NCBI GenBank assembly: GCA_947588755.1
Contig: CANPZB010000017.1
Span: forward strand, 1 to 32,793
Source of the DNA: Candidatus Gastranaerophilales bacterium
GTDB taxonomy: Bacteria; Cyanobacteriota; Vampirovibrionia; Gastranaerophilales; Gastranaerophilaceae
DNA length: 32,793 nucleotides
Direction: 5' to 3'
Below, in pieces: positions 3,705-32,696 of this stretch. The notes under the pieces were generated by a model. The model searched no databases. It was not told the DNA's origin and saw nothing but the letters and a program-made list of their open reading frames with translations. A program made the translations under genes and the position numbers. The number at the start of each line of letters is the position of its first letter. Positions within the stretch are counted from its first letter, which is position 1.

Positions 3705-5438
3705 ATGGCAAATACAAACATTATCGACGAAAAAACGGTTGAATACGGAAAAGATTTAATCCGCAAAGGCATTGTCTGCCTTGAAAATACCGATTACGAC
3801 AGTGCGGCTAAGAGTCTTTCTCAGGCTGCCGAAATTTTAAAAAACCAAAATTTAAGCGGCTATATTTCGATATGTTACAGTTTGACCGCTCTGGTTAATT
3901 ATCTTGCCGATACAAAAAATTATAAAGATGCGTTAAAATTGATAAATGATGCGGTGTTTCTTGCGGGTTATTCAAAAGATTTATCGGCACAAATGTTTTG
4001 TGAATATGCATTAGGTTCAATAAATTATAGCGAAGGACTTAACGATACGGCATTACTTCATTATGAAAACGCAAAAAATATTGCTATTGACTCGGGTGAT
4101 GAATTTTCATTTGCAGGTTATATTTTATCAGGCATTAAGCGGATTAATGAAGGTAAAAAGTTCTCAAAGTCCATAAAAAGTGACCCTTTGATTTCACTTG
4201 TAAAAATAGGGCGTTCGATTACCGCACAAACTGATATTAACGTATTGCTTAAAGTTATAGCCGAAGAAACTAAAATAGCCATTCAGGCTGACAGATGTAC
4301 AGTGTTTCTGCTTGACAAAGATAAAAATGAAATTTGGTCAAAAGTTGCTTTGGGTATGGAAAATCAAGAAATACGTTTTCCTGCCGATAAAGGGCTTGCC
4401 GGTTACGTTATAAAAACAGGGGAATCGGTTAATATCGCCGATGCTTACAAAGACGAAAGATTTAATCCGAATGTTGACTTGAAAACAGGTTACAAAACCA
4501 AAACAATTCTATGTATGCCCATAAAAAATAATAATCAGGAAATTATCGGTGCTTTTCAGGTATTAAATAAACTTAACGGCAAATTCTCAAAAAGTGATGA
4601 AGATTTGCTTGTGGCAATAGGCGGGAGTGCAAGTATAGCAATAGAAAATGCCCAGTTGTTTGAACAGCAAAAAGAATTGTACAAAGAACAAAAAGCACTT
4701 TTTGAAAGCTTTATTGATACTCTCGCAACTTCTATCGATGCCAGAGACAAGATTACGGCAGGTCATTCAAGCAGGGTTAAATTATATTCAATGCTGATTG
4801 TCGATGAACTTGGTTGTGACAAAAAGTTTAAAGAACTTGTGGAAAAAGCCGCAACACTTCATGACATAGGTAAAATCGGTATAAGAGATGCCGTTTTGCA
4901 AAAAGAAGGGAAATTGACCGAAGAAGAATACAGGCATATTCAGGAGCATGTTAAGATAACACACAATATTCTTGAAAAGATTTACATGTCCGAAGATTTT
5001 AAAATTATAACGGAAATAGCTTGTTCACACCATGAAAAATACGACGGTTCAGGTTATTACAGACATTTGAAAGGTGAAGATATTCCTTACGGCGGCAGAA
5101 TTCTTGCGGTTTCGGATGTTTTTGATGCCATTACCTCCAAAAGACACTACCGTGATAAAATGCCGATAGCTAATGTAATCGGTATTCTGATTAAGGATTC
5201 GGGTACTCACTTTGACAAAAATATCGTTGATGTTTTTCTTAAAATTCCCGTCAACAAAATCGTAAAAGTCTTTTTGACGGAAAATCATCATTCGCTTAAA
5301 GCGGAAGATGAAGAAATTTTGAGTCATTACAATTTGTCGGATATTTATAATTTTATAAACAATAAAAATGCCGACGAAAAACAGCTTCAAGCGGTAAATC
5401 TTTTTAACGCTTATTATTGCGGGAATTCTGAGGGGTAA
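3705..5438 (+). CDS. TPR-GAF-HD-GYP signalling protein, probable c-di-GMP phosphodiesterase
   Basis: The 577 residues read as three parts. Residues 1-150 are helical TPR-like repeats. Residues about 165-320 are a GAF sensor domain (DRCTVFLLDKD, GLAGYVIKTGESVNIADAYKDERF). Residues about 335-515 are an HD-GYP hydrolase, with H386-D-I-G-K, H442-H-E-K-Y-D-G-S-G-Y-Y and DVFDAITSKRHYR. The family opens and degrades cyclic di-GMP. The signature GYP triad reads G-Y-Y here, with Pro replaced by Tyr. No membrane segment or signal peptide is seen, so it is cytoplasmic. It is first in an operon with the TPR protein six bases downstream. The GAF ligand is unknown. Confidence 0.9.
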   Translation: MANTNIIDEKTVEYGKDLIRKGIVCLENTDYDSAAKSLSQAAEILKNQNLSGYISICYSLTALVNYLADTKNYKDALKLINDAVFLAGYSKDLSAQMFCEYALGSINYSEGLNDTALLHYENAKNIAIDSGDEFSFAGYILSGIKRINEGKKFSKSIKSDPLISLVKIGRSITAQTDINVLLKVIAEETKIAIQADRCTVFLLDKDKNEIWSKVALGMENQEIRFPADKGLAGYVIKTGESVNIADAYKDERFNPNVDLKTGYKTKTILCMPIKNNNQEIIGAFQVLNKLNGKFSKSDEDLLVAIGGSASIAIENAQLFEQQKELYKEQKALFESFIDTLATSIDARDKITAGHSSRVKLYSMLIVDELGCDKKFKELVEKAATLHDIGKIGIRDAVLQKEGKLTEEEYRHIQEHVKITHNILEKIYMSEDFKIITEIACSHHEKYDGSGYYRHLKGEDIPYGGRILAVSDVFDAITSKRHYRDKMPIANVIGILIKDSGTHFDKNIVDVFLKIPVNKIVKVFLTENHHSLKAEDEEILSHYNLSDIYNFINNKNADEKQLQAVNLFNAYYCGNSEG

Positions 5439-5444
5439 AACTTT

Positions 5445-6980
5445 ATGCAAAAATATAAAAAATATATTTTTATATTGGCTTTATTAATAAGTGTTTTGCC
5501 TGCTTTTTCGCAAGATACCGTCGTTACTCCCGCCGACAGGAATTTGGAACTTTATCAGCCCGTTGACTTTGATACATCCGGCCCGAAACGGGCAACGCTT
5601 ACTCACAACGATATTCATAACCAGTATTCGTTTGCTCTGGACAGATTTGTTCAGAGTAATGTAAAGTATGCATACAGAGATTTTGCGGTTCTTATAGAGA
5701 CTATGAAACCTACCGATTACGGTTACATGCAGATAGCGAACAGAATGTCGGAGTTGGGACTTTTTAATTTGGCTGATTCCGCTGTTTCTAAAATTTCCGA
5801 TAAGGATATATCTTCAATAATTGTCGAAGATATGAAAAGATTTTATTACCCCGTAAAAAAGTTAAAACCCGCTGATGAAATGTATTTGGCTGAAGTATTT
5901 TCAAATATTGTTTACAATGACCAGAGTCTTGAAGCTACGACCGAACTTGTTAAAAATACCGATTTATTAACACATTCCGATTATGCAAATTATGTTGCGG
6001 CTCTGGGATATTTGAGAGCGGGTGATTTGATTTCTGCCGGAAAATATATTGATTATGCCATTTCGTTAAACAGTGAAAATTTGAATTATAAAAAATTAAA
6101 AGCTGAAATTCTGGTTTCCGGTAACAAGCCGAAAGATGCCTTGAAAATCGCACAGTATATAAAACAACAGAGGTTATATTCAACTGATTTCGCTAACAAA
6201 GGCGGTTCACTCGAACAGTTTTTGCTTTATAAATCACAAAAAAACGAAAATAAAAAATTGTATCATCTCGGATATTATTATTATCTTGAAGGTGATTTAA
6301 ACAAATCGGTCAGAACTTTACAAGGTGCGGTAAGCTCAAAAAAATCACTTAACAGAGATGTTTATGCACTTTTGGCAAGAGTATATTTTGATAATAATGA
6401 TTTTGAGAAAGCAAAAGATACCGCGGCAAAAGCACTTAAAGCGGGAAGTAAAAACTATCAGGCATACCTCGTTTTAGGTGATTGTGCATACAGGAACAAC
6501 GATTATAAAGAAGCCTTAAAGTATTTTAAAACTGCGGAAAGTATTTCGCAAAACATATCTTTACCGCTCGTAAGGCTTGCTCAGACTTATGAAAAGCTGA
6601 ATAAAGAAAAGAAAGCTTACGAAATATATGAAAAAATATTGAAAACGTATTCAGATGCTTATATGGCTTACTACAAAATCGCTTTGAAGGACAAATCAAA
6701 AGAAATTGCATATTTAAAAAAATCGCTCGCTATAAACATACGTTTTAAAGATGCATGGATAGATTTGGGCAGAGTCGAGTCAGAACGCCACAATTACGAA
6801 GAAGCCAAAAAATATCTTGCTGTCGCAAATTATATTGACGAAAATGATTTTAGATATTATTATTATCAAGGGCTGATATATAAAAATCAGGGGTTAAAAG
6901 AGAATGCTGAAAGGTTTTTTAAAAAAAGTCTGCTGTTAAATCCCGATTATCAGCCGGCAAAAGAGGAATTAAGTATATGA
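5445..6980 (+). CDS. Exported TPR-repeat protein
   Basis: This 511-residue protein begins with a clear signal peptide: KKYKK-type basic residues, the hydrophobic stretch IFILALLISVLP and a likely cut after AFS at about residue 22. The rest is helical. Tetratricopeptide repeats are clearest from about residue 270 to the C-terminus (YYYLEGDLNKSVRTL, LARVYFDNNDFEKAKD, LGDCAYRNNDYKEALKYF, YYYQGLIYKNQGLKENAERF). TPR arrays act as protein-binding scaffolds, and this one would work outside the inner membrane. It lies 6 bases after the HD-GYP gene, and its stop overlaps the start of the next gene (ATGA at 6977-6980), so the three are very likely co-translated. No enzymatic motif is seen and the partner is unknown. 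Confidence 0.85.
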   Translation: MQKYKKYIFILALLISVLPAFSQDTVVTPADRNLELYQPVDFDTSGPKRATLTHNDIHNQYSFALDRFVQSNVKYAYRDFAVLIETMKPTDYGYMQIANRMSELGLFNLADSAVSKISDKDISSIIVEDMKRFYYPVKKLKPADEMYLAEVFSNIVYNDQSLEATTELVKNTDLLTHSDYANYVAALGYLRAGDLISAGKYIDYAISLNSENLNYKKLKAEILVSGNKPKDALKIAQYIKQQRLYSTDFANKGGSLEQFLLYKSQKNENKKLYHLGYYYYLEGDLNKSVRTLQGAVSSKKSLNRDVYALLARVYFDNNDFEKAKDTAAKALKAGSKNYQAYLVLGDCAYRNNDYKEALKYFKTAESISQNISLPLVRLAQTYEKLNKEKKAYEIYEKILKTYSDAYMAYYKIALKDKSKEIAYLKKSLAINIRFKDAWIDLGRVESERHNYEEAKKYLAVANYIDENDFRYYYYQGLIYKNQGLKENAERFFKKSLLLNPDYQPAKEELSI

Positions 6981-7624
6981 AAAAAAACATCCTGATAGTT
7001 GAGGACCATGAATTAACAAGATTTGGCTTAAAAACCGCATTTGACGGAGTTGATTATGTAGGGGAAATTTACGAGGCGGAAAGTGCCGAAACTGCTATTG
7101 ACATTTTCAACAACAATCCGGTTGACATTGTTATAATGGATTTGGGTTTACCCAATATGAACGGTATTGAGGCAACAAAAAAGATAAAAAATTCCGGTAA
7201 AGATGTTAAGATAGTAATACTTACTTCTCATAATGATGAAAAAGAAGTTCTGAACAGTCTCCGTGCAGGGGCTAATGCATACTGTTCAAAGGAAATAAAT
7301 CCTCAAAGGCTGATAGAAGTTGTTCATTCCGTATCGGAAGGCGCGGCATGGTTTGACCCGAGTGTTGCACATATAGTTTTGAAGGCGGGAGCCAATGCCG
7401 ATAATTCAGATAATACGACAAACCATAAAGATTACGATTTGACCTCAAGAGAAGCTCAGATTTTGAAGTTAATGACAGAAGGATACAGCAATATGGAAAT
7501 TGCTCGTTTACTGGTTATAAGTATTAACACTACAAAAGCACATGTTGCAAGTATTTTGCAAAAGTTAGAAGTTGATGACAGATTACAGGCGGCTTTAAAA
7601 GCCTTAAAAAATAAAATAGTATAA
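6977..7624 (+). CDS. NarL/FixJ-family response regulator
   Basis: The 215-residue protein has a receiver domain (residues 1-120, acidic pair E9-D10, phospho-acceptor D55 in MDLGLPNMNG, then LTSHND and the switch Lys in YCSKEI). It ends in a LuxR-type helix-turn-helix (about 147-210: LTSREAQILKLMTEGYSNMEIARLL). Such regulators bind DNA as dimers once phosphorylated. The ATG overlaps the stop of the TPR gene, so translation is coupled. No sensor kinase lies in this operon, so the phosphate donor must be elsewhere; the kinase at 23980 is one candidate within the window but nothing ties the two together. Confidence 0.9.
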   Translation: MKKNILIVEDHELTRFGLKTAFDGVDYVGEIYEAESAETAIDIFNNNPVDIVIMDLGLPNMNGIEATKKIKNSGKDVKIVILTSHNDEKEVLNSLRAGANAYCSKEINPQRLIEVVHSVSEGAAWFDPSVAHIVLKAGANADNSDNTTNHKDYDLTSREAQILKLMTEGYSNMEIARLLVISINTTKAHVASILQKLEVDDRLQAALKALKNKIV

Positions 7625-7641
7625 CATTAAAAAGGAAAAAT

Positions 7642-8253
7642 ATGTCTGAAACCGCAAATGTTTTAATTGTAGATGATAATTGTAAATATTTAAAAGATGC
7701 ATTACCTTTTTACGGTTATGATGCGGATTTGGCTTCGGACGGTATTCAGGCATTAAAGCTTCTCACTTCGGATAAAAATTACGATATGGTTCTGCTTGAT
7801 GTAATGATGCCTAAAATGGACGGCTGGCAGACATTAAAAGCCATAAGAAACAATGATAAAATTAAAAATATTCCCGTTATAATGCTGACTGCGGTCAGTG
7901 ACGAACAGAAAGTTATTTCGGGTTTGAAAACGGGTGCAGATGATTATATTATCAAGCCTTTTGTCCTGCCAAACCTTCTGGCACGCATGGAAGCAGTTTT
8001 AAGACGTGTGAAAAGGTATCAAACAGATAAACCCGCCGCTAATGACGATAATATAAAATTAATAAATACTTTGACCGAGCGTGAATATGAAGTTTTGAAA
8101 ATGGCTTCCAAAGGCGAAAGTAACAAGCAGATAGCCGATAAGCTTTATGTAAAAGAAGTTACGGTAAAAACGCATTTGAACAATATATTTAAAAAGTTGA
8201 AAGTCCAAAACAGAACTCAGGCAACTTTAATAGCTTTGGAAATGAATATATAA
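7642..8253 (+). CDS. Response regulator, receiver plus LuxR-type HTH
   Basis: The 203-residue protein has a receiver domain with D11-D12, phospho-acceptor D53 (LLDVMMPKMDG), T in MLTAVSD and K in YIIKPF. A LuxR-type helix-turn-helix follows a short linker (LTEREYEVLKMASKGESNKQIADKLYVKEVTVKTHLNNIFKKL). The receiver resembles OmpR-type receivers, especially the DDYIIKPF and ARMEAVLRR region, more than NarL ones, so the architecture is a receiver of one type joined to an output domain of another. It follows the first regulator by 17 bases with AAAAGGAAAAAT as the ribosome-binding site. The two adjacent regulators are only moderately similar, so a recent duplication is unlikely. Confidence 0.9.
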   Translation: MSETANVLIVDDNCKYLKDALPFYGYDADLASDGIQALKLLTSDKNYDMVLLDVMMPKMDGWQTLKAIRNNDKIKNIPVIMLTAVSDEQKVISGLKTGADDYIIKPFVLPNLLARMEAVLRRVKRYQTDKPAANDDNIKLINTLTEREYEVLKMASKGESNKQIADKLYVKEVTVKTHLNNIFKKLKVQNRTQATLIALEMNI

Positions 8254-21510: not shown

Positions 21511-23826
21511 TTATGAAAATGCTTTGAATGAACGTTCTACGTTTTTGTCAATTACACTTTTAACCGAGTCATATTCCGTTTGAAGTGCAGTATGTTCGGT
21601 TTCAAGACGTTTTAAATCAGAATCGTATTTTTTATCTTCTATTTCAATTTCATTTAACGCATTTTTGTACTTGGTTTCAGCTTTTGCAATGGCAATTTCA
21701 TTTTGAGTGGTGGAAATATCTGCCGCATTGCCGTATTCAATTGAAGTCCAGTCATAAGTACCCATTTTCGGGTAGGTTATTGAACCTTTTTCGTTAAACG
21801 ATACCTGTTCAAGCGTAATTACACCGTGTTCAAGTGCAAATTGAATCCATTCAGCATTATTCATAAGGTTGGAATCAAGTTCTTTGCATTTATTGACTGT
21901 TGATTTAGTGTTTTCATCAATTCCGCCCATTCTGTACCAGAGGTTTTTGTACCATTGATATTTCGGGTTGCCGGTGTTGAAACCATAATTTTCCTCAGGT
22001 CTCAGTCCTATGCTATCCATTATTTTTTGCAGTAAATTTTGAGCTTCTGTTTGCTTGTTTCTAAGGTCGTTTATCGCATTTTCTAATTCTGTTTTTAGTG
22101 CTTCTATTTGAGTCTTTATATCATTGTCAAATGCTTCTTTTGCCTCTGCGTATATTGTGAACAATGCATCATATTGTTGTTTAAACGTGTTATATTTCGT
22201 ACATTGATTTTGTGCCCAATTATATTTATTATTTTTATATTCTTGTAATTTTTTCTTATATTTTCCAACCGGACTGGTACTGTCAAAGGCATCTTTTATT
22301 TTGTTGCTGAAATCGCTGGGGTCAACCATTCCTCTATCAGCTATCCATTGACTTAGAGATTCATAGAAGCAATCTTCCCCAATTTCTACTTTTCTTGGGT
22401 CTTTTATATTTTCCGGATTTTCCGGATCGCTCGGGTCTTCTTTATATTTAACATCAACTGCCAACTCATCATAACCCTTGCTGTCATAAGTATTAAACGT
22501 TGTTTTTCCTTCAACGACATATAACAAGTCAAATGCTTCCATAATATATGCAAAAGCATCAATTATAGCAACTTTTTGTTCATTAGTTATGTTATTCATA
22601 AAATCTACAAATCCGGGATCTGATGCATAATTGGCATAAATACTTTTATCGCCGTATATAAGTGGAACACTTCCATGTATATCAGATGGTCTTCTGTCAG
22701 CTCTATGCCATTTAATTGATGTTAATGCTCCCGTACCATAATAACCCTTATTTTCCGGGACACCGAGTTCTGCTGCAATATCTTCAAAGTTTATTGTTGA
22801 CATTCTGTAATCATATCCGTATATTTGATCCAAAATCCCCTGATATGATTCATCATGTTGTAGTGTTGTGTGATCACATCCGAATATCATGGCAGCTAAC
22901 ATATTGGCAACTTGCCCCATGTATTCTATGGTTTCACTTGTCCAACCACTATAAAAGTCCATATTTTCAAATTCACTTGCCAAACGATTCCATTCATTAC
23001 TAAAGTATTCAGGATGACCGGAAACATCGTTAAAATAATATGTTCCGTCTACATCCTTCATTGTAGGTTCTGTCTCGTTAAATGAATCAAAGTTAAGTCC
23101 GGGGCGTTTTAATTTTTCTGCAAGTTCGGGATTAGTTTCCTTTATGCTTGCAAGATAATTATTATATTCTGTTGCCCATGTACTATAACCATTTTCAATA
23201 TCTGATATTTTATTTTCAAAATTTGGTATATCGCTATAAGCTTCACATTTCAATTCGTCAGGGAATTTATCGCTTGTTGGCGGTTCATCTACAAATTTTT
23301 TGTTTTCTAACTCTTTTATTTCAGCATTTATTTCGTTTGTTTTAAGCTCTATTGCAGCTTCTGTACCGTCATCTGTGGCTTTTAATTCTTCAAATGTTGT
23401 ATCAGGTATAATTTCTTTTAATTTTTTATCATACTCATCCAATGTATTTTTATTGAGAAGCGTTTCTTCAAGACCGTATTTTGCTAAAAAGTCGTTTAAA
23501 GTGGCACTGTTTGTGTAATTGTTAAAATCCTGACTGCTTACGAGAAGCTGACCTTGTGAATTTACAATACCGTACTGGTTTTTGAGTTCGCCGTAACTAG
23601 TTAATATTGAAGGAGTTAACAATTGATTTGTTCTCAAACCGTTTTGGTCATAGCTTACGTAAGTAAACTGTGTGTCGTTCAATGCAGCCATATAATCTCT
23701 GCTGGCTTCGCTTGATTTGTCGGCAAGACGAAGTTTCGAATTCGTTATCAATTGAGAACGCATTTCGTTGTCCGTTAAACGGGCCGTTATGCTTAATAAT
23801 CTTGCTTGTGCTGCCGACATTCCCAT
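21511..23826 (-). CDS. Large hypothetical protein with conserved-looking N-terminal helix
   Basis: The frame can be extended to an ATG at 23856, but the ATG at 23826 is preferred because an AAAGGAAA ribosome-binding site lies inside that extension; this gives 771 residues. The first 45 residues (MGMSAAQARLLSITARL then a Ser/Leu/Arg-rich helix) look like a dedicated N-terminal segment; I associate it with large proteins of Gastranaerophilales, from memory. There is no signal peptide. Residues about 130-230 and 570-630 are coiled-coil-like (Glu/Lys/Asn/Leu), the C-terminus is a long helix (EIEIEDKKYDSDLKRLETEH), and the middle has aromatic and Asp/Gly-rich globular stretches. No enzymatic motif is seen. 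It may be a secreted structural protein. Confidence 0.75.
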   Translation of the reverse strand: MGMSAAQARLLSITARLTDNEMRSQLITNSKLRLADKSSEASRDYMAALNDTQFTYVSYDQNGLRTNQLLTPSILTSYGELKNQYGIVNSQGQLLVSSQDFNNYTNSATLNDFLAKYGLEETLLNKNTLDEYDKKLKEIIPDTTFEELKATDDGTEAAIELKTNEINAEIKELENKKFVDEPPTSDKFPDELKCEAYSDIPNFENKISDIENGYSTWATEYNNYLASIKETNPELAEKLKRPGLNFDSFNETEPTMKDVDGTYYFNDVSGHPEYFSNEWNRLASEFENMDFYSGWTSETIEYMGQVANMLAAMIFGCDHTTLQHDESYQGILDQIYGYDYRMSTINFEDIAAELGVPENKGYYGTGALTSIKWHRADRRPSDIHGSVPLIYGDKSIYANYASDPGFVDFMNNITNEQKVAIIDAFAYIMEAFDLLYVVEGKTTFNTYDSKGYDELAVDVKYKEDPSDPENPENIKDPRKVEIGEDCFYESLSQWIADRGMVDPSDFSNKIKDAFDSTSPVGKYKKKLQEYKNNKYNWAQNQCTKYNTFKQQYDALFTIYAEAKEAFDNDIKTQIEALKTELENAINDLRNKQTEAQNLLQKIMDSIGLRPEENYGFNTGNPKYQWYKNLWYRMGGIDENTKSTVNKCKELDSNLMNNAEWIQFALEHGVITLEQVSFNEKGSITYPKMGTYDWTSIEYGNAADISTTQNEIAIAKAETKYKNALNEIEIEDKKYDSDLKRLETEHTALQTEYDSVKSVIDKNVERSFKAFS

Positions 23827-23942
23827 TGTTTTAAATTTCCTTTCTTTGATACACATGGTTTATCGGCATTTAAGGTTAATTTCTTTAAATTTACAACAGA
23901 AATTGTTACAAAAGTTAATAATAATTAAAAATATTAACGGAT

Positions 23943-23979: not shown

Positions 23980-25677
23980 ATGATAAAGATTTTATTTGTT
24001 TCGGACAGGCAAAAAAAAATTAACGAATTCGCAGGGTTTTTCAACAAAAACACTTACGAATTTATTGTTTCTGCCGATGAAACATATATTTGCGATATTA
24101 TGGAGGTTGATACTCCCGATATAATTATTGAGGATGCAAATACTAAATCCGTTGATTTTAAAACTTTAAATAAAAAAATAAAATCAATTTATGAAAACGC
24201 GGTTATTTTAGTTTTGACTTCCGGTAATGTTGTCGAAAAGGAGCTGGTTAAATATTCCAATGCTTTTATAACCGACGATATGCCGCAAAATCTTGTTTTA
24301 TCCACCGTGACAATGAATTTGAGAACAAAAAATTCACTCGATATGCTCGCAAATTCAAACAAAGATTTGGCTGACAGTTTGTACAGGCTGAATGCCTTAT
24401 ATACCACAAGTTCAAAATTCGCGGGAACTCTTGATAAAACAAAGCTTTTGGATTACATGGTCGAAGGTCTGGATAAAGCTTTATCGTTTTCTTTGACTTG
24501 CACTCTTTCTTTTTGTTCGGGGGAAAAACCCGTTCTTATGCTGAATTCTTTGTATGATATTTCGGATGAACTTTTGACCGCAATAAAACTTAGAACCGTA
24601 TTGAATTATAAATCAATATTTGAAGGGAAAAAACCGCCGTATGAAATTAATGCGGAAAATTTGAAGGTTGTTAAAAATATTAAATATCCCGCAAGCAAGT
24701 TTACTTTCACTTTATTTCAGTATGACAACATGTTTACGCCAATAAGTCTCGGTAATAATTTCTTCGGGTGTATTGAAATATTTAAAGAAACACCGTTTTC
24801 TTCTGAAGATGCAACCTGTTTTCAGACTATCGCACAACAGGTTATTCTGCCGTTAAAAAGTGCCTCGCTTTATCAGGAGCTTAAAGAGACAAATCACAAA
24901 CTTGAAAAATTGGAAAGGTTGAAATCGGAATTTATTTCAATAGTTTCCCACGAACTCAGAACACCGCTGACTTCCATAAAAAATTCCCTTGATATACTTT
25001 TGAGCGGCAGGTGCGGTGAAATTACGGCTGCAGCCGATAAATTTATATCAATGGCAAAGCGTAATGCTCAAAGGCTTTCGGGAATTATAAACGATTTGCT
25101 TGATATTTCAAAAATTGAAGCGGGTAAAATGGATTTCAATTTTAAAGAAATGAATATTCATTCCGTAATCGATTACGTCAAGTCTACTCTTAATGAAGTC
25201 GCAAAAAATAAAAATATCAGTCTGCTTACCGAAGAAACGGAAAACCTGCCGCTTATCAAAGCTGATTCGCAAAGACTTGAACAGGTGCTTACAAATTTGG
25301 TGTCCAATGCCATAAAATTCACGCCCGAGGGGAAAAAGATTATTATAAAATCTTCTCTCGCTGATGCCCGTGATATTAAAATTAATGAAAACTTTAAAAG
25401 TTCCATGCGTAAACTTGAAGGTGAGTATGTTATGGTCAGCGTAATCGATGAAGGTATCGGGATAGAAGAAAAAAATCTCCTTCATGCATTTGACAAGTTC
25501 GCACAGATAGAAAATTCTCTATCAAGAAAAGCCGGCGGTTCAGGACTCGGACTGCCTATCGCAAAACAGCTTTTGGAAGCACATGAAGGTGCTATTTGGT
25601 GTGACAGCGAAATTAATAAGGGTTCAAAATTTTATTTCGTCGTTCCCGTATGTCCCAAGGCACTTTGCACTAAATAA
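23980..25677 (+). CDS. Sensor histidine kinase with pseudo-receiver and GAF domains
   Basis: The 565 residues start with a receiver-like domain (1-115: ILFVSDRQ, PDIIIEDAN, LVLTSGN) in which the phospho-acceptor Asp is replaced by Glu, so it is probably not phosphorylated. A helix and a GAF-like domain (about 140-300) follow. Next come HisKA (FISIVSHELRTPLTSIKNSL, with the phospho-His) and HATPase_c (NLVSNAIKFTP, DEGIGIEEKN, GGSGLGLPIAKQLL). There is no membrane segment, so it senses a cytoplasmic signal. The single-domain regulator 127 bases downstream is the natural partner. The gene diverges from the large hypothetical gene at 21511. Confidence 0.9.
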   Translation: MIKILFVSDRQKKINEFAGFFNKNTYEFIVSADETYICDIMEVDTPDIIIEDANTKSVDFKTLNKKIKSIYENAVILVLTSGNVVEKELVKYSNAFITDDMPQNLVLSTVTMNLRTKNSLDMLANSNKDLADSLYRLNALYTTSSKFAGTLDKTKLLDYMVEGLDKALSFSLTCTLSFCSGEKPVLMLNSLYDISDELLTAIKLRTVLNYKSIFEGKKPPYEINAENLKVVKNIKYPASKFTFTLFQYDNMFTPISLGNNFFGCIEIFKETPFSSEDATCFQTIAQQVILPLKSASLYQELKETNHKLEKLERLKSEFISIVSHELRTPLTSIKNSLDILLSGRCGEITAAADKFISMAKRNAQRLSGIINDLLDISKIEAGKMDFNFKEMNIHSVIDYVKSTLNEVAKNKNISLLTEETENLPLIKADSQRLEQVLTNLVSNAIKFTPEGKKIIIKSSLADARDIKINENFKSSMRKLEGEYVMVSVIDEGIGIEEKNLLHAFDKFAQIENSLSRKAGGSGLGLPIAKQLLEAHEGAIWCDSEINKGSKFYFVVPVCPKALCTK

Positions 25678-25734
25678 GTTTGAGCAAACGGCTTTTATTA
25701 CGAAAGTTAACAAAATAGAAGAAGTTTTTTATTA

Positions 25735-25743
25735 TGTTATAAT
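25735..25743 (+). promoter_or_regulatory. Extended -10 promoter element
   Basis: TGT immediately before a perfect TATAAT (25738-25743) fits an extended -10. No good -35 is found at the right distance. It would start a transcript near 25750 for the CheY-like gene. Confidence 0.5.
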
Positions 25744-25804
25744 AAGTATTAATGGTAGTTCTTCAATATTTATAATCGGATAACAGGGGAATTAGAAAAA
25801 AATC

Positions 25805-26167
25805 ATGAAAAAAATTCTGATAGTTGATGATGAGCAGGATATAGTTGAAAGTTTGAAATTCGTTCTTGAAGCGGCGGATTATACTTGTTTTACGGCGTAT
25901 AACGGCGAGGACGGACTCAGACTCGCAAAAGAAATTATGCCTGATTTGATTATTCTTGATGTTATGATGCCTAAGATTAACGGCTATAAAATAAGCAGAT
26001 TACTGAAATATGACAACAAATACAAAAATATTCCCATATTGATGCTTACCGCCCGTTCTCAGGAACAGGATAAAATTATCGGTGAAGAAACAGGTGCCGA
26101 TGAATATATTACTAAGCCCTTTGAGTTGGATGACATTGTGAATAAGGTTCATGAGTATTTAAAATAA
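25805..26167 (+). CDS. Single-domain (CheY-like) response regulator
   Basis: The whole 120-residue protein is one receiver domain: D8-D9, phospho-acceptor D52 in ILDVMMPKINGY, T in LMLTARSQ, and K in EYITKPFEL. It has no output domain, so it would act by protein contact or as a phosphorelay carrier. It lies between the sensor kinase and the PilB-like gene, ending just one base before the latter's ATG, which makes co-translation very likely and suggests the PilB-like protein or its complex as its target. The ribosome-binding site is weak: GGGGAA lies about 12-14 bases before the ATG. An extended -10 promoter could express the last two genes apart from the kinase. Confidence 0.9.
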   Translation: MKKILIVDDEQDIVESLKFVLEAADYTCFTAYNGEDGLRLAKEIMPDLIILDVMMPKINGYKISRLLKYDNKYKNIPILMLTARSQEQDKIIGEETGADEYITKPFELDDIVNKVHEYLK

Positions 26168-26168
26168 A

Positions 26169-27563
26169 ATGGAAACCACCGTAACTAACAAAACGCTTGA
26201 AAAATTAAAATATGATTTGGTAAGAGCAGGTCTTGTGCCTTATGAAACTATTGAACAGGCAGACGAAATCGCTACTGCACAAAATATTAACATAGGACAG
26301 GCACTTATTAATTCGGGCGTTTTGTCGGAAGAAACAATTTTGAAATTTTTGGAAGCCAAACTCCATATCCCTTACGTTAATCTTGACGATTATACGCTTG
26401 ATACGGCATGTTTGAAATTCGTCAGCTATTCCGATGCAAAAAGATATCGGATTATACCGCTTTTTAAAATTGAAGATACTTTGACGGTAGCAATGGCTGA
26501 CCCGTTGGATTTGTTTGCCATAGATAAAATAATCGAATCGGCAGAATGCTCTATTGAACCCGTTATTTCTTCAGAATCATCCATTTCAAAAAAAATAGAG
26601 GAGTATTATAAATCGGAAGCGGAAACCGTCGGGGAAATATTTACTGGTGAAAATAATACCGATTATGACTGGCGTGATGAATTGCACAGCGAAGATTTGT
26701 CCGACAACCATATTCAAAAAATTATACGTGCCATTCTTAAACAAGCTATTCTGGAAGGCGTACATGAAGTTACTTTCCAAAGAGAAAATGACGGTTTTAC
26801 GGTTGTGTTTAAGAAAAACGGTGAAATATCGGAAAAAGGAAATATTCCGGCTGTTTTAACTTCTTCCTTTGTCGCAAAATTAAAAGTTCTTGCCGAGCTT
26901 GACCCTTCGGTTTCGGAAGTTCCACAGCTGGGTAAATTGTATTTTACCGTGGATGATATTGAAGTCGTCGCAAGTATTTCTACTTTCCCCACAATAATGG
27001 GAGAACGTATTTTCCTTAAAATATATAAACCTCCGACTCTTTTGAATAAAATTATAACATCTGATAAAAATCTTGCCGTGGTGAGAAATTCACTCGCTAT
27101 TCCGGGAATTATTCTTGTCTGCGGGTCGCCTTTGAGCGGAAAAACACATATTATATACTCTCTGCTTCTTGAAGCTGCCGCTAAAGACGGAAAGAAAAAT
27201 ATTATGACTCTTGAAAGTATTGCAAAATATAATCTTAAAGGGGTTAACCAATGCGAACTTAACGAAAATACGGGATTTAATATGGACAAGGCGGCAAGAT
27301 TTATTGAATTTCAATCTCCGGATTTGATTTACCTTGAAGGGATTAAAACAAAAGAATCTTTCGATTATTTTTCTAATCTCGTTTTTGATAATAAAACAAT
27401 TATCATGGAGTTTTTGGCAAATAACATGGAAGATTTACGCAACAAAATGTCTTTCTCCGATTTTGAAACTCTTAAATCACTTATCTCTTGCATGATATTT
27501 ATTCATTCAAAAGATAGTATTGAAGTTTTTGACAAAAGCACTGCCCAAAAATATCTGGCATGA
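26169..27563 (+). CDS. Degenerate PilB/GspE-like ATPase with MshEN-like N-terminus
   Basis: Residues about 10-150 of this 464-residue protein match the N-terminal domain of type II secretion / type IV pilus ATPases (GSPII_E_N, MshEN). This includes NIGQALINSGVLSEETILKFLEAK, close to the nucleotide-binding R-L-G-x-x-L pattern, and a second half around IIPLFKIEDTLTVAMADPLD. Residues about 190-440 resemble the PilB/GspE core, with P-loop G319-S-P-L-S-G-K325-T. The Walker B region reads D385-L-I-Y-L-E-G, where family members have G-E; the usual Asp and His boxes are not obvious and the zinc-binding Cys pairs are missing. It is about 100 residues shorter than PilB. ATPase activity is doubtful; a regulatory role is more plausible. 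Confidence 0.75.
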   Translation: METTVTNKTLEKLKYDLVRAGLVPYETIEQADEIATAQNINIGQALINSGVLSEETILKFLEAKLHIPYVNLDDYTLDTACLKFVSYSDAKRYRIIPLFKIEDTLTVAMADPLDLFAIDKIIESAECSIEPVISSESSISKKIEEYYKSEAETVGEIFTGENNTDYDWRDELHSEDLSDNHIQKIIRAILKQAILEGVHEVTFQRENDGFTVVFKKNGEISEKGNIPAVLTSSFVAKLKVLAELDPSVSEVPQLGKLYFTVDDIEVVASISTFPTIMGERIFLKIYKPPTLLNKIITSDKNLAVVRNSLAIPGIILVCGSPLSGKTHIIYSLLLEAAAKDGKKNIMTLESIAKYNLKGVNQCELNENTGFNMDKAARFIEFQSPDLIYLEGIKTKESFDYFSNLVFDNKTIIMEFLANNMEDLRNKMSFSDFETLKSLISCMIFIHSKDSIEVFDKSTAQKYLA

Positions 27564-27586: not shown

Positions 27587-27615
27587 TTGCCAAGTTTCGG
27601 TGTGCGTTATAGAAT
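27587..27615 (+). promoter_or_regulatory. Promoter for the hydrogenase operon
   Basis: TTGCCA (27587-27592) and TAGAAT (27610-27615) are 17 bases apart. Transcription would begin near 27622, followed by GAGGAA and the ATG at 27641, which leaves a short leader of about 19 bases. Confidence 0.65.
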
Positions 27616-27640
27616 ATATTTGGTATGCGAGGAAAAATTA

Positions 27641-27883
27641 ATGGCTAAAATGAATATAACGGTATGTATGGGCAGTGCATGTTTTGCCCGCGGAAACCAG
27701 CAAAACCTGTTATTCTTGGAAAATTATATACAAGAACATGGTTTGGATGCACAAATAAATCTTGCGGGTACAAGATGTGATAATAAATGTTCAAAAGGCC
27801 CGAATATTATAATCGACGATGTTGAATACAACAACATTGATGAAAAAAAATTGGAAGAAATTCTTTCCAAATGCAGTAATTAA
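27641..27883 (+). CDS. Thioredoxin-like [2Fe-2S] protein (NuoE/HydC-type), first copy
   Basis: The open frame reaches back to 27587, but GAGGAA a few bases before the ATG at 27641 and the start MAKMNITVCMG fix the gene at 80 residues. It is a minimal thioredoxin-like ferredoxin domain: C9-x4-C14 and C46-x3-C50 would hold a [2Fe-2S] cluster, as in the C-terminal half of NuoE and HydC. It lacks the helical N-terminal half of NuoE. Being first in the operon, 29 bases before the sensory hydrogenase, it is probably an electron carrier for that protein. The second small copy at 30895 is its diverged relative. Confidence 0.85.
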   Translation: MAKMNITVCMGSACFARGNQQNLLFLENYIQEHGLDAQINLAGTRCDNKCSKGPNIIIDDVEYNNIDEKKLEEILSKCSN

Positions 27884-27912
27884 GAATGGTTTTTTAAAAC
27901 GGGAGTTTATAA

Positions 27913-29625
27913 ATGAATAATCAATATCCGGTCTATACGTTAACAAACGAATGCCACGACTGCTACAAGTGTATACGTGAGTGTCCCGTTAAAGCTATAA
28001 GAATTGAAAACGGGCATGCTTCGGTAATTCCCGAACGGTGCGTTGCCTGCGGCAGTTGTGTTAAGGCTTGTCCTTCTAATGCAAAACGCGTCAGAACAGA
28101 TATCGATAAAGCTAAAAATCTTATTTTGTCCAAAAAAGACGTGTATGTATCTCTTGCACCTTCCTGGCGTGCGTCTTTTGAAAATTCCGCAGAAAAAATG
28201 ATAGCACTTTTAAAACAACTAGGGTTCAAAGATGTTTCGGAAACCGCACTGGGTGCTCAGGAAGTTTCGATAAAAACTGCTCAAATGCTTAATGAATGTG
28301 AAAAAGGGTTGTTTATATCAAGTGCCTGCCCCGTAATTGTGGATTATATAAGACTGTATATGTCAGAATTTACCAAATATATTACACCTATCGGTTCTCC
28401 GTTAATGACTCATGCCAAGATGTTAAAAGAAATTTACGGTGATGATATCGGGATAGTCTTTATCGGTCCTTGCATAGGAAAGAAAAACGAAGTTACCTAT
28501 TCCGGCTTGTTTGATGTCGCATTAACATTTGAAGAATTGAGAATGTGGGTTAATGACGAAATAATTGATATTTCAAAAGTTGTGAAAGACGATAAGTACA
28601 AATTTGTACCGGAATCCGCTTATGAAGGTACTTTATATCCTATCGACGGCGGTATGAATAAAACAATTAAAAAATCGGGTGTGAACGATAATGTTCAGCT
28701 TTTAGAGGTTTGCGGACTTACATCTTTACCGAGAGCATTGAACAATCTTGACGTTGAAAAACTTGATAAAACCATATTTATAGAAGCATTGGCATGTGAC
28801 GGCGGATGTGTCGGCGGGCCTTGTATATCTTCTGAAAAAGCAGGTATTACGATGGTTTCGGATATTCTTACGAAGGAAAAAAAACGTGATAAAATACCGT
28901 CAGAACCAAAAGTTGTCGTTAAATACAATATAGAACCCAAAAAAGTTGTAAATTCGGATTATCCTATCGAAGATATTTTAAAAACGCTGAAAAAAATAGG
29001 TAAACACAGTGTGGACGATGAACTTAACTGCGGAGGGTGCGGTTATGCCACTTGCAGGGATTTGGCAAAAGCACTTCTTGACGGCGATGCGGAAACATCA
29101 ATGTGCGTTTCTTACATGAGAAAAATAGCGGTAAGAAAGGCTGCCGCTATGATTCGCTGTATGCCTGCCGCCATTGTAATGGTTGATAACAACTTAAATA
29201 TTCTTGAAGCCAATGACAGCTTTATGAAAATGTTTACGGGCGATATGTACGAAGTCTTTAAATCACGTCCTGACGGGTTGACGGGTGCAGCACTGGACAG
29301 AATTGTCGATTTCGCGGATTTGTTTAAAACAATTTTAAAAACAGGCAAAGACTTACATAAAGAACGGTATCATGTAAAAAACAGGCTTTATGATATATCG
29401 GCATTTACGATAGAAGAAAATGAAATTGTCGGTGCTGTCATAACTGATGTTACATCTGCGGAAACCAACAGGGAAAAAATTTCGCAAAAAGCACAGGAAG
29501 TTATATCAAAAAATATTTCCATTGTTCAGGAAATTGCCTGCCTGCTTGGTGAACACATGGTTGAGACCGAAACTCTTTTGAGTTCAATAGCTAATGACTA
29601 TGATGAAAAGGAGGATAGCGTATAG
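27913..29625 (+). CDS. Sensory [FeFe] hydrogenase, HydS-like, with PAS domain
   Basis: In order along 570 residues: two [4Fe-4S] motifs (C14/C17/C20/C24 and C43/C46/C49/C53), an H-cluster domain, an extra [4Fe-4S] motif (C373-x2-C376-x4-C381-x16-C398) and a PAS domain at about 415-520. The H-cluster motifs are S137-A-C139-P, G-P-C187-I-G-K-K and A-C295-D-G-G-C299. In catalytic enzymes the first motif reads T-S-C-C-P; the proton-relay Cys is Ala here, as described for HydS-type proteins. Such proteins are taken to sense H2 or redox state rather than make H2. The phosphatase gene 39 bases downstream fits a sensor-output pair. Maturases HydE, HydF and HydG are not in this window. Confidence 0.88.
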   Translation: MNNQYPVYTLTNECHDCYKCIRECPVKAIRIENGHASVIPERCVACGSCVKACPSNAKRVRTDIDKAKNLILSKKDVYVSLAPSWRASFENSAEKMIALLKQLGFKDVSETALGAQEVSIKTAQMLNECEKGLFISSACPVIVDYIRLYMSEFTKYITPIGSPLMTHAKMLKEIYGDDIGIVFIGPCIGKKNEVTYSGLFDVALTFEELRMWVNDEIIDISKVVKDDKYKFVPESAYEGTLYPIDGGMNKTIKKSGVNDNVQLLEVCGLTSLPRALNNLDVEKLDKTIFIEALACDGGCVGGPCISSEKAGITMVSDILTKEKKRDKIPSEPKVVVKYNIEPKKVVNSDYPIEDILKTLKKIGKHSVDDELNCGGCGYATCRDLAKALLDGDAETSMCVSYMRKIAVRKAAAMIRCMPAAIVMVDNNLNILEANDSFMKMFTGDMYEVFKSRPDGLTGAALDRIVDFADLFKTILKTGKDLHKERYHVKNRLYDISAFTIEENEIVGAVITDVTSAETNREKISQKAQEVISKNISIVQEIACLLGEHMVETETLLSSIANDYDEKEDSV

Positions 29626-29646
29626 GAATATAACCGATTTATATTC
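29626..29646 (+). promoter_or_regulatory. Hairpin between sensory hydrogenase and phosphatase genes
   Basis: GAATATA (29626-29632) pairs perfectly with TATATTC (29640-29646) across a 7-base loop. It sits directly after the upstream stop codon and 18 bases before an ATG that has no Shine-Dalgarno sequence, so it may affect coupling or mRNA processing. It has no T-run, so it is not a terminator. Confidence 0.5.
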
Positions 29647-29664
29647 GGCTGTTACTGAAAAAAT

Positions 29665-30828
29665 ATGTTTATAGATATAGATTGTAACCAAACAAAGAAA
29701 TATAACCAGAATGCATACGGCGATTATTTTGTATCAAAAAGATATCCTGATGAAGCAAAGTTGATAGCCGTATTATCGGACGGTCTGGGAAGCGGAATAA
29801 AAGCGAATATTTTATCTTGCATGACGGCAACAATGCTTCTGAAATTTATAGAAGGCGACCAAATACCTATAAGCAAAGCGGCTGAAATAGTAATGAACTC
29901 ACTTCCCGTTTGTCAGGTGCGTAAGATTAGTTACTCTACCTTTTCGGCGATAGAAGTCGATGATGAAGGCAATGCGATGATAGTCGAAGAAGGTAATCCC
30001 GAATTTATATGGATTCGTGATAACGAGGTAATGAAACCTGACTTTATTTCTGTCCCTTCAAAAACTTTCAAGAACAGATGTATGAAGGTTTATAAGGTTA
30101 AAATGCAGCTTGGTGACAGAATAGTATTTTGTTCGGACGGAGTTACACAGTCGGGACTCGGCGGAGGCAGACTTAAACTGGGGTTAAGACGAGAAGGCTT
30201 GATTGTGCTTTTGAAAGATAAGTTGAGCGAACATCCCGACATATCAAGTTCGGAGCTTTCCCAATATATCGTTAATCAAGCCAGAAATATTGAAACCGAC
30301 AGAAACCCTAAAGATGATATTTCGGCTTGTGTCTTGTATTTTAGAGAGCCGAGAGAGGCATTAATATTTACCGGTCCGCCTTATCATCAGGAAAAAGATG
30401 CGGAATATGCAAAACTTTTTGATAATTTTAAAGGCAAAAAAGCCATTGCGGGCGGTACTACCGCGAATTTAATATCGAGAGAACTTAATCGTCCCATTAC
30501 GATGGATAACACGATAAGTATCGGTAAATTACCTGCCTGTTCATTTATGGATGGTGTCGATTTGGTTACGGAAGGAATTTTGACACTTACCAAAACTCTG
30601 GAATATCTTGAAGCAAATAATTCCGATATTGACAATGCCGCCGGGAAGCTGGTAAAATTTTTATTGGATAGTGACTGTATTAATTTTATGGTCGGTGCTA
30701 AACTTAATCAGGCTCACTACGATCCGGCATTACCAATAGAAATTGAAATTCGTAAAAATATAATCAAAAAAATGGCGGAAGTGCTTCAAAGCAAATATTT
30801 TAAAAAAGTTAATATACAATACATGTAA
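29665..30828 (+). CDS. SpoIIE/PP2C-type protein phosphatase with C-terminal extension
   Basis: Residues 1-230 of 387 form a SpoIIE-like PP2C phosphatase domain with the metal-binding acids D20 (YGDYF), D39 (VLSDGLGSG), D158 (FCSDGVTQSG) and D217/D218 (NPKDDISACVLYF). Such enzymes remove phosphate from Ser/Thr, often on regulators such as anti-sigma factor antagonists. Residues about 232-387 are an extra domain (IFTGPPYHQEKD, KKAIAGGTTANLISREL, FMVGAKLNQAHYD) that I cannot name. An in-frame stop lies just upstream, so the ATG is the only possible start, although it lacks a Shine-Dalgarno site. The gene order, HydS-like sensor then phosphatase, is known from hydrogenase operons of other anaerobes. 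Confidence 0.87.
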   Translation: MFIDIDCNQTKKYNQNAYGDYFVSKRYPDEAKLIAVLSDGLGSGIKANILSCMTATMLLKFIEGDQIPISKAAEIVMNSLPVCQVRKISYSTFSAIEVDDEGNAMIVEEGNPEFIWIRDNEVMKPDFISVPSKTFKNRCMKVYKVKMQLGDRIVFCSDGVTQSGLGGGRLKLGLRREGLIVLLKDKLSEHPDISSSELSQYIVNQARNIETDRNPKDDISACVLYFREPREALIFTGPPYHQEKDAEYAKLFDNFKGKKAIAGGTTANLISRELNRPITMDNTISIGKLPACSFMDGVDLVTEGILTLTKTLEYLEANNSDIDNAAGKLVKFLLDSDCINFMVGAKLNQAHYDPALPIEIEIRKNIIKKMAEVLQSKYFKKVNIQYM

Positions 30829-30894
30829 AAATACGGTGAAGCGAGTACAAATTAAGAAAAAGTAACGGAAAATTCAGATAAAAAAGGAGAAAAA

Positions 30895-31152
30895 ATGGAC
30901 AAAAAAGTTAGTGTAAAAGTATGTTTAGGAACAACCTGTTTTGTTATGGGTTCATCAAATCTTCAGGAATTAATAGACACTGTACCCGCTAAATACGGTG
31001 ACAGAGTTGAGGTTTCAGGAGTTCCATGTTTGGGTTTATGCTCTATTGATTGGGAATTTTCCAAAGCACCTTATGTAAAGGTAGATGACGAGGTTATTAA
31101 AGAAGCCACGGTCGAAAAAGTTCTTTCTGCAATTGATGAGAAGTTAAAATAG
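30895..31152 (+). CDS. Thioredoxin-like [2Fe-2S] protein (NuoE/HydC-type), second copy
   Basis: An 85-residue thioredoxin-like ferredoxin: C10-x4-C15 and C45-x3-C49 for a [2Fe-2S] cluster, in the contexts VCLGTTCFVMG and VPCLGLCSI. It differs widely from the copy at 27641 outside the cysteines, so the pair is old. AAAGGAGAA before the ATG is the strongest ribosome-binding site of the operon, which suggests a higher dose of this carrier. It comes 74 bases before the group-B-like hydrogenase and is probably its electron partner. No NuoF-like NAD(P)H-binding subunit lies between the two. Confidence 0.85.
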   Translation: MDKKVSVKVCLGTTCFVMGSSNLQELIDTVPAKYGDRVEVSGVPCLGLCSIDWEFSKAPYVKVDDEVIKEATVEKVLSAIDEKLK

Positions 31153-31167
31153 ACTTCTGTTTTTTAA

Positions 31168-31196
31168 TTGGATAAAATTTCGTTTTGTGCAATAAT
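31168..31196 (+). promoter_or_regulatory. Possible internal promoter for the group-B-like hydrogenase
   Basis: TTGGAT (31168-31173), 17 bases, then AATAAT (31191-31196) preceded by TGC as an extended -10. This would give a transcript from about 31203 and a leader of about 24 bases, allowing the last gene to be expressed separately. Confidence 0.45.
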
Positions 31197-31226
31197 GGGA
31201 TTACAAACAGATAAGGAATCGAATTT

Positions 31227-32696
31227 ATGTCAATAAATACACCCAAGCAGACATCTCATTTAAAAAGAGAAATACTCGTAAGATTAATAAAAGCATTTTT
31301 AAGCGATAATTTTGAAGAAAGAACAAGACTTATCCCCTATGATATGCGTCCGAAAGGTCATGAAGTACCTTACAGATGTTGTATATATAAGGAAAGGGCA
31401 ATTCTTCGCGACAGAGCAATAGCAGGTTTAGGCTGTTCCATTGAAGATACTGACGACAGTATGCTTTTATCGGAACTTGCGGCAAAAGCCTTAAAAAGAG
31501 AAAAACCTGATGAAAAGCCGCTTACTGTTCTTACAACGGCTTGCAAGGGCTGTGTTCCCGCAAGGATATATGTTACGGATTTGTGTCAGGGCTGTGTTGC
31601 AAGACCTTGTGAAAATACCTGCAAATTCGGTGCGATAAAAGTTATAAACGGAAAATCCATTATTGATTCCTCCAAATGCAAAAACTGCGGAATGTGTGCT
31701 CAGGTTTGTCCTTATCAGGCAATACAAAAAATTATCGTTCCGTGCGAAAGTGCCTGCCCTGTCAGTGCAATTGAAAAAGACGAAAACGGAAACGCAAAAA
31801 TCGATTTTGACAAGTGTATTTCGTGCGGGAAATGCGTTGCCGCATGTCCTTTCGGTGCGGTTCATGAAAAAAGCCAGATTATTGACGTTTTAAAAAGTAT
31901 TAAGAGTAAGAAAAAAGTTATAGCAATGGTAGCCCCCGCTATAATGGGTCAGCTTCCCTGTACACCGCAGCAATTAAAGCAGGCGATATTAAATCTGGGA
32001 TTTTCGGAAGTTTATGAAGTTGCCCAGGGTGCGGATATTACCACAAAGAATGAGTCGGAAGAATTTGTTGAACGGTTGGAAAATGGCGAAGAATTTATGA
32101 CAACTTCCTGCTGTGCGGGCTACAATGAACTGGTTGAAAGACATATTCCCGAAATGAAACCTTTCCGCTCGGATACAAAAACACCTATGTATTACACGGC
32201 AGAAATTGTAAAACGTGAACATCCGGATGCCATAACGGTATTTTTGTCACCTTGCGTTGCAAAGCGTCGTGAAGCATTGAAAAATCCCAACGTGGATTAT
32301 GTAATTAATTACGAAGAACTCGGTGCGTGGATGGTAGCGTTAGGAATTCAGGTAGCTGAATGTCAGGAAAGTGAATTTAAAAATGAAGCTTCAGCGGAAG
32401 CCAGAAATTATGCCGTTATAGGCGGTGTTGCAAAAGCCGTTCAAACACTTTTGCCCGAAGAAATTCCCGCACATCCCGTAATTATTGACGGTCTGAATAA
32501 GCAGTCAATAAGAGATTTGAAAAAATATGCCAAAAACGGTATGTGTGAACTCGGCAATTTAATTGAGGTTATGGCATGTCAGGGCGGTTGTTTAGGCGGT
32601 AACGCAACGGTTAACGCATATAAGCCCGCACTTAAACAACTTACAAATTACGTTAATTCAAGCAAACCGCTGGTTGAACAACACGAAAAAGTTTAA
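31227..32696 (+). CDS. [FeFe] hydrogenase, group-B-like
   Basis: The 489-residue protein has a Cys-rich N-terminal half with several [4Fe-4S] motifs (CKGC, LCQGCVARPCENTC, KCKNCGMCAQVCP, PCESACP, KCISCGKCVAACPFGA), then the H-cluster domain. The motifs are T-T-S-C295-C296-A-G-Y, S-P-C343-V-A-K-R-R-E and M-A-C451-Q-G-G-C455. The proton-relay Cys (C295) is kept, unlike in the neighbour at 27913. The variants AGY for PGW, SPCVAKR for MPCxxKK, and the N-terminal cluster order point to the little-studied group B of anaerobes rather than group A. Direction of catalysis and partner are unknown. A consensus promoter 22 bases after the stop starts the next unit. Confidence 0.88.
   Translation: MSINTPKQTSHLKREILVRLIKAFLSDNFEERTRLIPYDMRPKGHEVPYRCCIYKERAILRDRAIAGLGCSIEDTDDSMLLSELAAKALKREKPDEKPLTVLTTACKGCVPARIYVTDLCQGCVARPCENTCKFGAIKVINGKSIIDSSKCKNCGMCAQVCPYQAIQKIIVPCESACPVSAIEKDENGNAKIDFDKCISCGKCVAACPFGAVHEKSQIIDVLKSIKSKKKVIAMVAPAIMGQLPCTPQQLKQAILNLGFSEVYEVAQGADITTKNESEEFVERLENGEEFMTTSCCAGYNELVERHIPEMKPFRSDTKTPMYYTAEIVKREHPDAITVFLSPCVAKRREALKNPNVDYVINYEELGAWMVALGIQVAECQESEFKNEASAEARNYAVIGGVAKAVQTLLPEEIPAHPVIIDGLNKQSIRDLKKYAKNGMCELGNLIEVMACQGGCLGGNATVNAYKPALKQLTNYVNSSKPLVEQHEKV

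Follow-up and report, generated by a model that had tools for sequence, protein, structure and literature searches.

A window of 32,793 nucleotides from a Candidatus Gastranaerophilales bacterium (positions 1 to 32,793 of contig CANPZB010000017.1, assembly GCA_947588755.1) carries three clustered genes on its forward strand, which encode a soluble sensor histidine kinase of 565 amino acids (HK, 23980..25677), a CheY-like single-domain response regulator of 120 amino acids (RR, 25805..26167) and a 464-residue protein with the fold of the pilus ATPase PilB (PB, 26169..27563). We consider it rather probable that the three form a dedicated phosphorelay, with PB as a PilB-derived pseudo-ATPase serving as its output or scaffold. 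An original prediction for this window had described the same cluster, with the regulator and the PilB/GspE-like gene one base apart, and had suggested that PB is a signalling adaptor derived from a pilus motor. Open reading frames (ORFs) and Pfam agree with the former, a single base separating the TAA stop codon of RR (26165-26167) from the ATG of PB (26169); the latter is supported by the loss of catalytic residues, the retention of PB in genomes without pili and the joint loss of all three genes. The genome is 1.83 Mb in size and 99.8% complete, and its nearest relatives are metagenome-assembled genomes of Candidatus Gastranaerophilales.

The PilB fold and the type IV pilus

Pfam recognizes two domains in PB, MshEN (residues 66-152, 70.8 bits) and T2SSE (89.6 bits, cut-off 24.9), the second aligned only over profile positions 4-226 of 370. 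The AlphaFold2 (AF2) model, built on 53 sequences with a predicted local distance difference test score (pLDDT) of 83.3, takes the PilB fold: residues 176-464 match Geobacter PilB (5zfr), the closest solved fold, with Z 24.3 and a root-mean-square deviation of 3.2 over 281 aligned residues, and residues 8-147 match MshE (5htl) with Z 18.8. A search of the Protein Data Bank with the PB family profile likewise returns PilB first (1.2e-60). From Pfam and the 5htl fold we delimit the MshEN (N1D) domain at residues 9-152 (26193..26624), and from T2SSE and alignments the N2D and RecA-like C-terminal domains at residues 178-464 (26700..27560). The protein is indeed short, as originally noted, terminating right after the RecA-like fold, ahead of the region that holds the zinc motif and the C-terminal extension in PilB. 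It scores 185.7 bits against the PilB equivalog TIGR02538, under the cut-off of 675.65, a threshold that the canonical PilB of the same genome, at 547 bits in the genome search, likewise does not reach.

Does PB belong to the machine whose motor it resembles? The genome does have true PilB and PilT genes elsewhere, namely a canonical PilB of 669 amino acids beside PilC and a secretin, plus two PilT-like genes, and PB as the only pilus ATPase is therefore rejected. Pilus genes were searched for in 191 genomes of the window's family (f1; we denote by f2 a family of the same order, Gastranaerophilales, and by f3 one of a sister order), and two genera proved conspicuous, g21 with 8 genomes and g130 with 7. 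In their 15 genomes PB is the only protein matching PF00437 over the cut-off, and neither PilC (0/15) nor secretin (0/15) was found by searches that succeed in pilus-bearing comparison genomes. PB is present in 14 of these 15 genomes lacking PilB, PilT, PilC and secretin, while in the fifteenth (G345) the HK gene is cut off by the end of its contig. The retention of PB where the pilus machine was lost means that PB does not need that machine. The ratio of non-synonymous to synonymous substitution rates (dN/dS) of PB in these genera is about 0.02-0.05 where computable (9 of 21 pairs in g21 and 13 of 15 in g130).

These observations bear on the possibility that PB serves the type IV pilus as a regulatory subunit, forming mixed hexamers with PilB or competing for PilC or PilM, with HK and RR tuning piliation. 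The PilB fold and the full pilus set of the genome would accommodate such a role, and inactive PilT is known to work with PilU in Vibrio cholerae (PMC11656802). We nevertheless regard a pilus subunit as unlikely, given that strong purifying selection maintains PB in 14 of the 15 genomes without the machine, that the arginines bridging PilB subunits are replaced in every f1 sequence, and that two pilus-bearing genomes have no PB.

Loss of the catalytic residues

Residues were counted in an alignment that combined 111 f1 and 3 f2 PB sequences with 7 canonical PilBs from Gastranaerophilales, the 114 PB rows being those left after removal of a duplicate gene (L107 = L131) and addition of two f2 rows; Geobacter PilB numbering was transferred by alignment. 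In Geobacter PilB, E357 holds Mg, and the catalytic Glu after Walker B is conserved family-wide (PMC5424180). The latter residue, E395, is replaced in PB by Gly391 in 110 of the 111 f1 sequences and by Ser in the remaining one, and by Lys or Thr in f2, while all 7 canonical PilBs have Glu. The altered Walker B of the window (PDLIYLEGIK, residues 384-393, 27318..27347) accordingly reads SPDLIYLEGIK in its wider context, against DPDIILVGEIR in the genome's own PilB. The swapped end of this motif, E-G for G-E, was already apparent in the original prediction and proves to be a family trait, with E390 present in 114/114 PB rows.

The replacements extend well beyond Walker B. The degenerate Asp box (TLESIAK, residues 347-353, 27207..27227) has Lys353 in place of the Mg-binding E357 in all 114 sequences. 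In the degenerate His box (residues 409-419, 27393..27425) H413 has become Lys409 in 111/111 f1 rows, and H420 has become Leu or Met at position 416 in 110/111, with a gap in one; the window has Leu416. The two trans-acting arginines are likewise replaced throughout f1, R271 by Ser and R286 by Lys (111/111 each), and the T411 position is occupied by Asp, Glu, Asn, Lys or Ser. The absence of the zinc Cys pairs, noticed at the outset, also holds across the family: the tetra-cysteine zinc motif and the C-terminal extension are missing from 114/114 PB sequences. All seven canonical PilBs, by contrast, retain R271, R286, E357, E395, T411, H413, H420 and the zinc Cys pairs. Alignment thus gives an incomplete catalytic set in every relative examined, and to the losses first recorded can be added those of the Glu in the Asp box, the two histidines of the His box and two arginines. 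As far as its residues tell, PB cannot hydrolyse ATP by the known PilB route.

The P-loop has a different history. Walker A (GSPLSGKTH, residues 319-327, 27123..27149) is kept, a point absent from the original prediction, and its GxxxxGKT signature (G319, G324, K325, T326) is found in all 111 f1 sequences, the window included, and in none of the three from f2. Nucleotide binding thus stays possible in f1. Two acidic residues, E349 of the Asp box and E390, are invariant in 114/114 sequences, and their persistence in f2, which has no P-loop, indicates that they are held for another reason than nucleotide chemistry.

This last point weakens the proposal that PB is an active though unorthodox nucleoside triphosphatase (NTPase), in which the shifted E390 or the kept E349 would take over catalysis. 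The invariance of the f1 P-loop and of both glutamates is what such an enzyme would lead one to expect, but the glutamates are equally invariant where the P-loop is gone, the Mg-binding Glu is a Lys, and the trans arginine and the gamma-phosphate His are lost; we consider residual catalysis of this kind quite unlikely.

Inheritance of the three genes

PB is a regular constituent of its family. Genome contigs contain 80 relatives at 76-87% identity, and PB is found in 128 of the 130 f1 genomes sampled, G100 carrying only residues 91-464. The median dN/dS is 0.034, from 30 usable pairs of 60 drawn from 213, with synonymous sites often saturated. Such strong purifying selection (dN/dS about 0.03) and the presence in 128/130 genomes lead us to reject PB as a chance ORF or a decaying or recent pseudogene. 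The two genomes without PB, G148 (99% complete) and G277 (97%), have best HK matches of 146 and 118 bits, to the kinase cores of other proteins, against 462-845 for orthologues elsewhere, and best RR matches of 98 and 91 bits against 180-226; from these low scores it follows that HK, RR and PB are all gone in both.

The three genes are also physically linked. In 113/113 loci PB is immediately preceded by RR in the same orientation (here and below, counts of 113 include the gene L107 = L131 twice), the commonest gaps being 1 and 2 nt with 23 loci each, and an HK-family gene occurs in 81 of 99 loci, some contigs ending nearby. HK stands on the opposite strand to the RR-PB pair, yet adjoins it, in L107 (G192), L073 and L078, and the unit thus survives local inversion. 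In 41/99 loci (e.g. L031:6701-7573) HK and RR have between them an oppositely oriented gene of a 285-amino-acid family that matches nothing in Pfam.

Adjacency alone is not interaction, and PB might merely be co-transcribed with a two-component system and work apart from it, while RR acts elsewhere in the manner of CheY; single-domain regulators may indeed act on unlinked targets. We judge this very unlikely, because the linkage is maintained in 113/113 loci over two families, G148 and G277, both of them f1 genomes close to complete, lack all three genes together, and RR has no other output domain.

The unit predates family f1. HK, RR and PB are present in three of four f2 genomes, the fourth, G376 (66% complete), giving no PB match. 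The f2 PBs have 408-413 amino acids and have lost the P-loop; in the one scanned, Pfam does not recognize T2SSE, whereas MshEN scores 70.7 bits, against 70.8 in the window. Identity between the window PB and f2 is 44-46% over residues 9-65 and 55-59% over 66-152, and falls to 27-32% over 178-300 and 24-27% over 301-420, so that the N-terminal half is the part held by both families. In f3, all 11 genomes match only over PB residues 178-418, in frames of 497-588 amino acids, like canonical PilB. An ancestral form of the operon, in which an active PilB would adjoin a regulator, was sought in nine regions surrounding the top distant hits: a PilB ORF was called in eight, none of which gave a regulator match (0/8) and one of which had a kinase-like ORF a few kb off, while in the ninth region (L171) the PilB ORF was not called by the simple gene picker.

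The conserved MshEN domain suggests one further role for PB, that of a cyclic di-GMP (c-di-GMP) receptor with the phosphorelay as second input. The MshEN fold is clear, and GGDEF genes occur in 21/21 genomes searched, so c-di-GMP is probably available. The c-di-GMP-binding MshEN motif comprises two copies of 24 residues, RLGxx...LxxxLxxQ, with an Arg and a Gln in each (PMC5013675). PB has Lys in place of the first Arg in 111/113 rows (Arg being kept in 1/113), Asn in place of the second in 113/113, and Ala/Ser and Lys/Arg at the Gln positions in 113/113; the NCBIfam model c-di-GMP_motif gives 22.1 bits against a cut-off of 38. With the required Arg/Gln site replaced, the PB MshEN is, to judge by its residues, no standard c-di-GMP receptor, and we hold this role to be highly improbable.

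The wider neighbourhood gives no functional hint. The commonest neighbours (an MlaE permease, a trypsin-like protease, an aminotransferase, DUF561 and a prepilin-like family) differ from clade to clade. Directly downstream of PB in the window, at 27587-32696, Pfam identifies an [FeFe]-hydrogenase cluster composed of a thioredoxin-like 2Fe-2S protein, an Fe-hydrogenase with FeS and PAS regions, which we take to be of the sensory type, a SpoIIE-type phosphatase, a second thioredoxin-like protein and a second Fe-hydrogenase. A functional tie between PB and these genes was rejected, since queries from the cluster matched none of 80 related loci. Upstream of HK, a 781-residue protein on the reverse strand (21511-23856) has no Pfam match over the cut-off and belongs to an unnamed family of the Gastranaerophilales lineage; in 25/99 loci a family related to this protein is located close to HK, and a similar N-terminus opens an ORF at L005:1-873 on the reverse strand. 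Farther away, the gene at 12-2135 encodes a 707-residue protein that combines YadA head repeats with a Peptidase_S74 intramolecular chaperone at its C-terminus, which suggests a self-processed surface adhesin, and a second signalling cluster at 3705-8253 comprises a GAF and HD (HD-GYP-like) protein, a TPR protein and two LuxR-type response regulators.

A putative phosphorelay and its relation to known systems

HK and RR each look functional, judging by their conserved residues. The kinase consists of a pseudo-receiver, a helix, a GAF-like domain, HisKA and HATPase_c, the last two over the Pfam cut-offs (4.3e-18 and 7e-25). The pseudo-receiver (residues 1-117, 23980..24330) has the receiver fold without the acidic pair and the conserved Lys, and an hhalign comparison of the HK N-terminus (15 rows) with the RR family (28 rows) gives a probability of 97.4 and E 1.3e-11. 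The alpha/beta domain at residues ~150-290 (24427..24849) is only tentatively called GAF-like: the label derives from AF2 secondary structure, as the structural comparison covers mainly residues 305-560, and the sensory region receives no Pfam name, with no GAF match at E<=1. HisKA (24922..25125) contains the motif SHELRTP with the phospho-acceptor His324 (codon 24949-24951). H324, N443, D490, G492 and G494 are invariant across 49 HK rows, leaving the H-box and the ATP-binding motifs intact, and the AF2 model (pLDDT 81.7) has a kinase core resembling DivL, ZraS and HK853 (Z 21-24). The f2 kinases (L159:3241-5217, L160:5025-7058) have 658-677 amino acids and extend ~90 residues past the ATP-binding domain. 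RR consists of a Response_reg domain alone (Pfam 7.9e-29), with no output domain, and its D8, D9, D52, T82 and K104 are invariant in 28 rows, Asp52 (codon 25958-25960) being the phospho-acceptor.

How might these parts work together? We hypothesize that HK reads a cytosolic signal via its GAF-like and pseudo-receiver domains and autophosphorylates on His324, and that the phosphate would then pass to Asp52 of RR; the residues are intact, and the chemistry is that expected from the respective families. Having no output domain of its own, RR would use PB as its output partner, most likely docking on the MshEN domain, which is the part best conserved between f1 and f2. In f1 the P-loop of PB might bind, without hydrolysis, a nucleotide that serves as a switch or a permanent ligand, a capacity that would have been lost in f2. 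As a scaffold or adaptor, PB would then work on a target that should be something other than the pilus machine, given the persistence of PB in genomes that have lost that machine. As to the origin of the unit, we lean slightly towards a duplication of PilB in the ancestor of Gastranaerophilales, followed by loss of catalysis and adoption of the copy as dedicated output of a three-gene phosphorelay wholly separate from pili.

Several observations weigh against this scaffold hypothesis. Family f1 retains the whole P-loop, and its PB may therefore have some nucleotide-dependent activity. PB co-occurs with a full pilus system in most genomes, and a prepilin-like (N_methyl) family, assigned by Pfam on one member, is found in the fetched flanks of 41/99 loci. 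The genera g21 and g130 are sisters in the PB tree (support 100/96), and the loss of the pilus with PB kept may therefore be a single event, after which PB persisted for long in 14 genomes. Finally, the joint loss of the three genes rests on two genomes.

If the scaffold hypothesis is true, PB would stand for a class of signalling scaffolds derived from a secretion NTPase, in which one lineage dropped the pilus and another the P-loop while both kept the unit. The NTPases of secretion and pilus systems are viewed as motors; here an apparently motor-free version is tied to a putative phosphorelay, in a unit carried by nearly all members of a gut lineage that is mostly uncultured. The pilus-less relatives offer a clean natural test that the job of PB is not piliation, and a separable signalling role of PilB, so far shown by Myxococcus xanthus mutants, would become directly testable on a protein capable of that role alone.

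We found no description of PB, of the three-gene unit or of their combination in a dedicated paralogue in the open-access literature; the one Gastranaerophilales paper found to name pilB counts it among the ordinary pilus genes (PMC5877343). By analogy, each proposed step appears to have its separate precedent. PB shares with PilB/GspE (Geobacter PilB 5tsg, 5zfr) the MshEN - N2D - RecA-like order of domains and the fold, but differs in having no catalytic Glu, Mg-binding Glu, His-box histidines, trans arginines, zinc Cys or C-terminal extension, and in being encoded with a kinase and a regulator rather than with pilus genes and kept without pili. A response regulator addressing a PilB-type protein has been proposed within the same phylum, in Synechocystis, where PixE is thought to bind PilB1 (PMC7690835); PixE has a PATAN domain and targets an active motor in phototaxis, whereas RR is a bare receiver whose predicted partner is a pseudo-ATPase. 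The use of MshEN/N1D as a dock for a small regulatory protein is exemplified by the Xanthomonas PilB-PilZ-FimX complex (PMC8389850, 7lko), in which PilZ docks on the N-terminal domain of PilB and to which the N-terminus of PB is similar in structure (Z 14.8), although the docked protein there is PilZ and not a phosphorylatable receiver. In M. xanthus, a PilB incapable of ATP hydrolysis can signal to the production of exopolysaccharide even when pili are missing (PMC5544727). A single PilB serves there as both motor and signalling protein, and its inactive form is a mutant made in the laboratory, whereas PB would be a separate, naturally dead paralogue dedicated to the signalling role.

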